A DNA stretch of 64,000 nucleotides from Phyto melanocephala (lineage: Eukaryota > Arthropoda > Insecta > Diptera > Rhinophoridae). A program made the position numbers and the translations under genes. Each line of letters begins with the position of its first letter. Positions within the stretch are counted from its first letter, which is position 1. Where the stretch lies: positions 37,160,701 to 37,224,700 of the forward strand of contig OW799235.1 in NCBI GenBank assembly GCA_941918925.1. The letters are read 5' to 3'. The notes beneath the pieces are model-generated. The model was not told the origin of the DNA and ran no database searches. It worked only from the letters and a program-made list of their open reading frames with translations. Positions 9,258 to 12,384 of this stretch are shown in pieces.

Positions 9258-9781
9258 GAGCACTGTATTAGGCTGTGCCGAATTTTTGAACCCACCATCG
9301 ATTTTGTGTACTTTTATAGCAAAAAATTTATTATTTTGTTATTAACTTTTTAGCTTTTGAATAATTTCTTTTGTAACTTCAATTTGCTATTAATATATTT
9401 TCTTAAATTTAGTCTTGCATTGAAACATTAAGTGTTTCTATATTACTTATTTAGCAGTGATACTACTGACTCTTTTTACTATAATATTGAGTTTTTACGA
9501 AAACTAAAGAGTATAATTTGTTACCCAGAGGTTGTTAAAAAATAATATCAGCTTTGTGTAGGCGTGACACCTCCTACTTTTAAAATTATATAATAAGTGT
9601 TTAAATTCAACTCAGATAATCCATTATAGACTTCTGTTTTCTTGAAAAATGTTTGTCCATATAAAATAATATGAATTTAAGTAAAAGCGTACTATGTGGG
9701 AGGTAGGCGATTAAGCGGGTGTGTAACCTAAATTTCTTTGGAATTATACTTCTACTGATAAGAAATCTATATATGCGGTAA

Positions 9782-11889
9782 CACAGTACAACACATGATT
9801 TGCCAACTCAATTCTGTTAACTGTATGTGAAATTAGACCCAAAAAGAAGAATTTCTGCATCATTCGTTTTGTCTTCTTACCTGCGATTTGAAGTTAGTAT
9901 CGATTTGAAGTTAGTACTGTCGTATAGGGGAATTTATCACGTTTTAGGCCCTGTTGTTTGACATAGCTCGACAACCACTAGCCCAATTTAGTTGAAATAA
10001 ATTTTAAAAAATTAAGAATTACAATTCCCTTAATCTGTTCATATATTGTTTTCCTATACAAGTAACACTTTCGAAGTTAAAAATAAATGTATGAAGGGAA
10101 AAAATTATTTTTTGCCTAAAAATTTAAATTTTTTTTTTTTTAAATACATAAAAAATCCAAAATGGAAAAAAGTTTCAAGTCTAGTTATTTTTTCGCAAAG
10201 TCACATAACCTATGAGCAAAATGAGACAAAGATCATAAAAATCGATGCACGCGTTTCGCTTTTATTCGCAATTGAGTAAATGTATGAATTTCAAAAATCA
10301 GTTATAGCCACCACCCTTAAAATAAAAATCTAAATTAAAAAATTATCATGCAAAAAAAAACTTTATTTATAAAAACTTAATGAAAATAAAATAATATGCA
10401 ATTATAATATGCATATATAATATGCGGATTGGTGAAAACGGTTGCGGCTAGCAGGGACACAGTATCCGCACTCGGAGGTTTAGGTGCATCGGTATCAGCA
10501 GGGCGTTGCACTGGAAGTGTGGCAGTAAATGCAGCAGTGTATACTTTTGTTTTCAATTGTTGTCTGTTTAATCCAGGACGAAAATTTATGCATGCATAGC
10601 ACCTGGATTCATCATGTCCAGTTGTGTCTTCCACCCAAATTACTGGCTTCATAAAAGATAACTTTCTACTTTTTCCGTGAATCCATTTTAGAAGGGTAGT
10701 ATAACAACTGTTGCACACTGTGTTCGGCGTAAAATTTGCACCACTTAAATCTGCTTCATCGAAATAATTACAATACGCGGTTTTGAATTGCTCAGTAAAC
10801 AAATTTTTTCGTTTTTTTTTCTGTATTTTTCGGACGATATGACCACAAACGTAACAATATTCATCCTAATATGGGCACTTGTTGTTTTCCATATTGATAT
10901 ATTTTATGTTTTGTTGTTATTCACTTTTAAAAAACTGGAGAAAAATCACTTTTACTGTTCGCGTTCGTCGGCACTGGCTGAATGCCAAAAATCGATCAAT
11001 GCACACCTATAAATACTACGTATTTTTGAATATTTTACTGCCAGGTACTTATAAATGGGCGCATATTTTAAGGGCGGCTGGCTATATACCTGATTCAGCA
11101 CTTGTACGTTTCAAACTGTGCAAAACTTTCAAAATAATGACCACCCTTAAATGTGGGTGCAATTTCTGTAAAAAATCATATAGGTAGCCACCGGAAAAAC
11201 CAAAATAATAAAAAGGTCCACTTTCCGTTTAATTGTCCACGTACATTTATTACCGCAATCATAAAAATCAAATAACCTTTTGTTTATTCCTTTTTTTTTA
11301 ATTCTCAGAATCATTAAAAAGGTGTCAATGTTTTCTCCAAATAATGTTGTGCATATCTCGAGCAAATTTTTGAAATTCATACATTTACTCAATTGCGAAT
11401 AAAAGCGAAACGCGTGCATCGATTTTTATGATCTTTGTCTCATTTTGCTCATAGGTTATGTGACTTTGCGAAAAAATAACTAGACTTGAAACTTTTTTCC
11501 ATTTTGGATTTTTTATGTATTTAAAAAAAAAAAAATTTAAATTTTTAGGCAAAAAATAATTTTTTCCCTTCATACATTCATTTTTAACTTCGAAAGTGTT
11601 ACTTGTATATGAAAACAATATATGAACAGATTAAGGGAATTGTAATTCTTAATTTTTTAAAATTTATTTCAACTAAATTGGGCTAGTGGTTGTCGAGCTA
11701 TGTCAAACAACAGGGCCTAAAACGTGATAAATTCCCCTATACGATACTAACTTCAAATCGATACTAACTTCAAATCGCAGGTAAGAAGACAAAACGAATG
11801 ATGCAGAAATTCTTCTTTTTGGGTCTAATTTCACATACAGTTCACAGAATTGAGTTGGCAATCAATTAACTGAAAAATGTTGTACTGTG
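9782..11889. mobile_element. Palindromic 2.1-kb transposon with ~0.5-kb inverted arms
   Basis: The left arm (9782-10298) and right arm (11366-11889) are inverted copies that appear more than 95% identical; the differences I saw are single bases, a 3-bp and a ~10-bp indel. The tips read CACAGTACAACA. The element interrupts a D repeat and is flanked by TAA at 9779-9781 and 11890-11892, which fits a 3-bp target duplication of the TWA type used by PIF/Harbinger elements, although other boundary readings are possible. The 1067-bp core carries one gene remnant on the minus strand. No recognisable transposase is present. Diverged arm relatives lie at 34418-34935 and 36090-38580. Confidence 0.8.
10377..10892 (-). 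pseudogene. Cys-rich protein of an uncharacterised arthropod family, N-terminal part
   Basis: From the ATG complement at 10892-10890 the frame gives 171 codons with one stop at codon 9 (10868-10866). Three CxxC pairs are visible: CYVC at codons 13-16, CNSC at 60-63 and CYAC at 98-101, the last after an HDE-containing stretch (GHDESR). Between them are LLKWIHGK and SFMKPVIWVE. Further on is a Pro-rich DAPKPP segment. I recall this layout (CYxCG, then a short W..GK segment, P-hydrophobic-WRE, H...DCYFC) from a large family of uncharacterised insect and spider proteins; its function is not known to me. The Cys pairs suggest zinc binding. The match ends soon after DAPKPP, so only the N-terminal part is here. 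The gene runs inward from the right arm. The stop may be a real break. Confidence 0.65.
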
Positions 11890-12384
11890 TAATTTATCAT
11901 CATACATCTAATTCTGTCGATTTTGTGAGATTTTAAATTTCATAAGCAGTAGATTATGTGAGAATTGGGCGTTGGAGTAGCCGTACCAAAGTGGTTTATG
12001 TTAATTAATTCTACTTAGATATTGAAGTTCAAATTCTTTGTCCATAAATTTCTCTATGGAATTTGATTTCTTTATTTAAATTTGAGATAAGGCGTTATAC
12101 GATTTGAAAAGTTTTAAGGGAGAGATATTTTTTTATTCAGGAAATATACTTGCAATATCTACAATGAGATTAAACACAATCGTCTTTTATTCGATGTAGG
12201 AAGGACATTGTTGCTTTGACCTAATTTTGCATTACGAGCTATAACTCTTTTCCTAAAATATACATATAGTATACTAATATACTTTATGGGGTCCAAAATA
12301 TAGGCATATAAATTTAAGTAGGCAACACTTTTTATCTGACAGCTACATATAACTATGTTGTGATTTATGTTTAGTTTCGATTGT

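Follow-up and report, generated by a model that had tools for sequence, protein, structure and literature searches.

A palindromic insertion in the genome of the fly Phyto melanocephala carries part of a gene for a cysteine-rich protein, which raises the question of whether the gene belongs to the element and what kind of element it is. The insertion lies in the 64,000-nucleotide stretch of contig OW799235.1 that we analyzed (the window). It is a bounded element of 2108 bp with exact coordinates (9782-11889) that starts with CACAGTACAACA, ends with TGTTGTACTGTG and has TAA on either side. We are highly confident that it derives by internal deletion from a young cut-and-paste DNA transposon of the Chapaev3 type (CMC/Transib-related) and is itself non-autonomous. 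The cysteine-rich protein is the N-terminal zinc-binding part of the element's own transposase. Capture of a host gene and other superfamilies with 3-bp duplications were rejected on fold, motifs, arms and target site.

The left terminal inverted arm (9782-10298, plus strand) has the tip CACAGTACAACA and the right one (11366-11889, minus strand) the tip TGTTGTACTGTG. They are 98.6% identical over about 503 nt and enclose a core of 1067 nt, in which a single minus-strand gene remnant holds the three CxxC pairs CYVC, CNSC and CYAC. This agrees with the first-pass annotation, which had described ~0.52-kb arms more than 95% identical around a 1.07-kb core with one such remnant.

That annotation had also proposed searching the host assembly for the arms and for full-length copies. 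The genome searched comprises 739.8 Mb in 9 contigs, and all copy counts are lower bounds. With positions 9782-10310 as the arm probe there were at least 42 matches (40 of 1320 candidates scored), far more than expected by chance. Forty, including the window's own, were full-length at 99-100% identity and two were partial at 98-99%. The gene remnant gave at least 150 matches, all at 96% or above (150 of 2570 candidates scored). From the 40 main places found with a core probe, 20 loci of ranks 4-27 were fetched in wider context, leaving out four of those ranks with both arms already in view, a choice that favours long copies. Arm sequence flanks the gene on both sides in all 20. As the core probe reaches into the arm, this set is biased towards arms and is uninformative on how often the gene occurs without them. 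The proposal that the cysteine-rich family belongs to a DNA transposon is nevertheless supported.

Two of the 20 loci were excluded from the table of tips, L035, where the right tip was not found, and L048, which is probably interrupted. Together with the window copy, the remaining 18 form the set of 19 elements used below. Sixteen of these are 3499-3649 bp long and the rest 3138, 2628 and 2108 bp. The 16 long copies diverge from one another internally by 0.23-1.12% (median 0.78%), and such low divergence indicates a young family. In L048 the matching tips lie 5468 bp apart, probably due to another insertion.

A long element of about 3.6 kb consists of the 0.52-kb inverted arms and one gene. 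In long copies exon 1 comprises 426 codons, its frame staying open until codon 459. A 106-bp GT-AG intron lies within codon 427 (G|GTACGT...ACAG|GT) and exon 2 follows. Splicing in silico yields a 620-residue protein and regenerates a run like that of relatives with no intron there (NGILNGPDIRKL). A strict pattern located donor and acceptor in 15 of the 19 elements. L033 and L038 failed it by one exon 2 base, and in L042 and the window copy the sites were not found. Four of the 15 spliced copies are free of stops and 11 are broken. Full-length copies with the same arms do exist.

The 620-residue protein has, in order, CYVC at 13, CNSC at 60, CYAC at 98, D263, D317, C(2)C at 338-341, LH at 387, H501-x4-H506 and DEQGE at 519-523, the arrangement of a DDE transposase with the C(2)C, LH and H(4)H motifs of Chapaev3. 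Both aspartates, C(2)C, LH and most of the N-terminal Cys and His residues are invariant or nearly so in an alignment of 50 relatives; the E motif region is reached by 20 of the 50, and H(4)H precedes the E motif in all 20. Three CxxC pairs and one His are invariant across 22 N-terminal pieces. At E <= 0.001, the exon 1 query found 758 relatives (4704 candidates) and a 557-residue relative, P0107, found 2174 (7990 candidates scored). Searching NCBIfam with two relatives returned nothing at E <= 1. A profile of the 50 relatives against PDB sequences matched no transposase, the two weak matches being unrelated.

The best 120 relatives of each query are mostly nameless, with the few names reading 'uncharacterized', 'hypothetical' or 'unnamed', as might be the case had an unrelated palindromic element picked up a gene of the host. 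We consider such a capture highly improbable. The protein itself bears transposase motifs, a relative is predicted to have a RAG1-like DDE fold, and the gene lies between the same arms in every long locus of the biased set. In addition, no second gene-sized open reading frame was seen in the 17 elements listed; apart from fragments of the transposase frame, those listed reached at most 114 residues on the gene strand and 140 on the other.

The first-pass annotation had suggested looking for an RNase H-like (DDE/D) fold. The predicted structure of the 557-residue relative matches RAG1 and the Transib transposase and has an RNase H-like catalytic fold closest to theirs. From this model the element's transposase is predicted to be built like RAG1, the antibody-gene recombinase. 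Identity between the modelled relative and the Transib/ProtoRAG/RAG1 recombinases is only about 10-14% in the structural alignments. For the N-terminal zinc domain, the element's family has a weak match to RAG1_imp_bd (E 0.11-0.26), which would fit the relation reported between Chapa and RAG1, but few members show it at E <= 1 (1 of 50 in one set, 2 of 40 in another). Unlike the element, Transib, ProtoRAG and RAG1 make a 5-bp target duplication, and no partner gene was seen in the element.

Identical 3-bp repeats flank all 19 elements and are TTA or TAA in 17. An A precedes the duplication in 18 of 19 and a T follows it in 15 of 19. Among further deletion copies, TTA or TAA is found at both sides in six of six. 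CACAGTACAACA is present at both ends of 18 elements, while in the remaining one a T replaces the first C at one end. The family has 5'-CAC...GTG-3' termini and a TWA duplication between A and T.

These features can be compared with published ones, cited here from the available excerpts of each paper. Marks given for Chapaev3 or some of its families are CAC..GTG ends, the A-TWA-T target, C(2)C/LH/H(4)H and a two-exon gene; the Chapaev3 elements examined by Zhang and co-workers have TWA between A and T (PMC4079192). An N-terminal Chapa zinc domain is described in Chapaev3 (PMC4411706), and EnSpm, Mirage, Chapaev and Transib all carry C(2)C and H(3-4)H motifs (PMC12730594). Like Merrow, Garfield and Conan (Chapaev3-n in Repbase), the element has CAC..GTG ends, TWA between A and T, C(2)C/LH/H(4)H, an N-terminal zinc domain and a two-exon transposase. 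Its transposase of 620 residues compares with 556 for Garfield_BM and 78 + 484 for Merrow_PM. At ~3.6 kb the element is longer than Garfield_BM (2,289 bp) and Merrow_PM (2,451 bp), and its arms measure 0.52 kb. Chapaev3 has been reported in another calyptrate, the blow fly Calliphora vicina, where a 2013 paper lists pieces of up to 1075 bp as Chapaev3-1_CV and Chapaev3-2_CV (PMC3630058), compared here by description only.

We also weighed whether the element could instead be a CACTA/EnSpm or a PIF/Harbinger transposon, both of which make 3-bp duplications. TWA duplications also occur in Harbinger, although Harbinger tips are not known to start with CAC. EnSpm is compatible with CAC..GTG ends and a 3-bp duplication (PMC12730594). 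Against both stand the N-terminal domain with three CxxC pairs, the LH motif, the A-TWA-T target and the RAG1/Transib-like model, all of which favour Chapaev3 (PMC4079192, PMC4411706). Nor was a second gene-sized reading frame seen in the 17 elements listed. Either superfamily is very improbable.

Several observations weigh against Chapaev3. Homology to the named group is deduced from the fold and motifs of the protein and from the ends and target site of the element, not from a direct alignment. The protein modelled is a relative with 38% identity to the element's own, not that protein itself, and the Foldseek TM-scores of the model to RAG1 are 0.41-0.47. Two of the 19 duplications are not TWA (ATA and CTA). 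The intron comes late, at codon 427, compared with an exon 1 of 78 residues in Merrow. A bracovirus copy is known from the literature and might have appeared in searches of viral sequences; however, none of 18 pattern matches in viral contigs was confirmed, and nothing in BFVD matched at E <= 0.001.

The first-pass annotation had taken the protein for a member of a large uncharacterised arthropod family, with no transposon link known to it, and had suggested that the family is spread by, or belongs to, a DNA transposon. The tie holds, but transposons of this kind are already known as Chapaev3, so that in principle it is an old one. What is gained is a likely function for a large set of arthropod proteins still called uncharacterised, this branch being transposases of the Chapaev3 kind. 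A young fly family with some intact reading frames would also be useful for the biochemistry of the RAG1-related group. The value thus lies in the naming of the protein family, in the young family itself and in a lead to the ZAD of insect transcription factors, discussed below.

The window copy differs from the long copies mainly by an internal deletion. Relative to L036 it lacks positions 1461-2987 (1527 bp), which hold everything from about codon 157 onward, both catalytic Asp residues and the entire exon 2. From the right arm to the junction the two are 98.8% identical over 1446 nt. The junction is at 10425-10430, where about 13 nt nearly duplicate adjacent sequence. By comparison with long copies, the 5' gene remnant of about 156 codons (10425-10892, minus strand) comprises the N-terminal zinc domain (putatively Chapa) and part of a linker. 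The deletion brought sequence from 3' of the gene (10299-10424, minus strand; matching L036 from 2988 onward) up to exon 1. Positions 10893-11365 (minus strand) align to the part of L036 between the right arm and the start codon. The Met codon of the remnant is at 10892 and its ninth codon is a premature stop (10866-10868, minus strand; MENNKCPY*DEYC in the window, MENNKCPYLDEYC in L036), so the open frame begins at 10865. Six other internally deleted copies (L002, L003, L006, L008, L010 and L011) have different breakpoints, and on sequence comparison the window's deletion looks private. Filler or a few shared bases are seen at some junctions of these six and at 10425-10430.

In the proposed cut-and-paste cycle, the transposase would bind the arms and excise the element with cuts at its CAC/GTG tips; reinsertion would be at A-TWA-T with duplication of 3 bp. 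The window copy lost its catalytic part in the 1.5-kb deletion, which would have been left when gap repair was interrupted after excision, a process that the internal deletions and their junctions in this family would fit. With its tips intact, the copy might still be moved by the transposase of other copies.

The arms seem to recombine with each other. Immediately inside the 12-nt tips the sequence is unlike at the two ends (in the window copy, the right arm differs from the left up to nt 26) and so marks each end. Seen along the gene, the 5' end bears one kind in 12 of the 19 elements (L029-L047 and the window copy) and the other kind in 7. Finding both orientations implies that the middle was inverted between the arms or the tips were exchanged, either repeatedly or in an ancestor that existed in both forms. 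Divergence between arms of the same copy averages 1.33%, versus 1.59% for 5' with 3' arms of different copies, 1.41% for 5' with 5' and 1.78% for 3' with 3'. Of 20,000 random pairings, 2 were as low as the within-copy value, and in 6 of 19 elements no arm is closer than the element's own partner arm. The effect is small.

The ZAD is the dimerisation domain of the largest class of insect transcription factors. The zinc domain of the element (10440-10865, minus strand) most resembles it, as judged from sub-threshold Pfam matches in relatives and from the fold of the window copy's domain, for which the matches are weak. The best zf-AD (PF07776) score shown was 22.6 bits, below the gathering cut-off of 28, and the element's own protein had no zf-AD match in Pfam. 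Both domains have a CxxC...CxxC order in their first 55-60 residues, whereas the transposase has a third CxxC and lacks the C2H2 array of ZAD proteins. A homology search with a 68-residue ZAD piece found two short proteins. It is conceivable, though somewhat less than an even prospect, that the Chapaev3 N-terminal zinc domain and the ZAD of ZAD-C2H2 factors share an ancestor; if they do, this would bear on where the most abundant class of insect transcription factors came from. The resemblance may be newer than the transposon assignment: our literature search found no paper containing both the words ZAD and Chapaev, and the available excerpts on the ZAD name no source for the domain.

The target-site duplication TAA occupies 9779-9781 on the left and, identically, 11890-11892 on the right. 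Joined by a single TAA, the flanks have at least 41 matches in the genome at 72-84% identity, not counting the two halves in the window itself (40 of 2160 candidates scored). Forty of the 41 cross the insertion junction, and some matches share a locus. This bears out the clean, TAA-flanked insertion into a repeat described by the first-pass annotation, since flank matches that span the junction indicate that the element entered an older dispersed repeat. Positions 9689-9781 and 11890-11994 are parts of that repeat.
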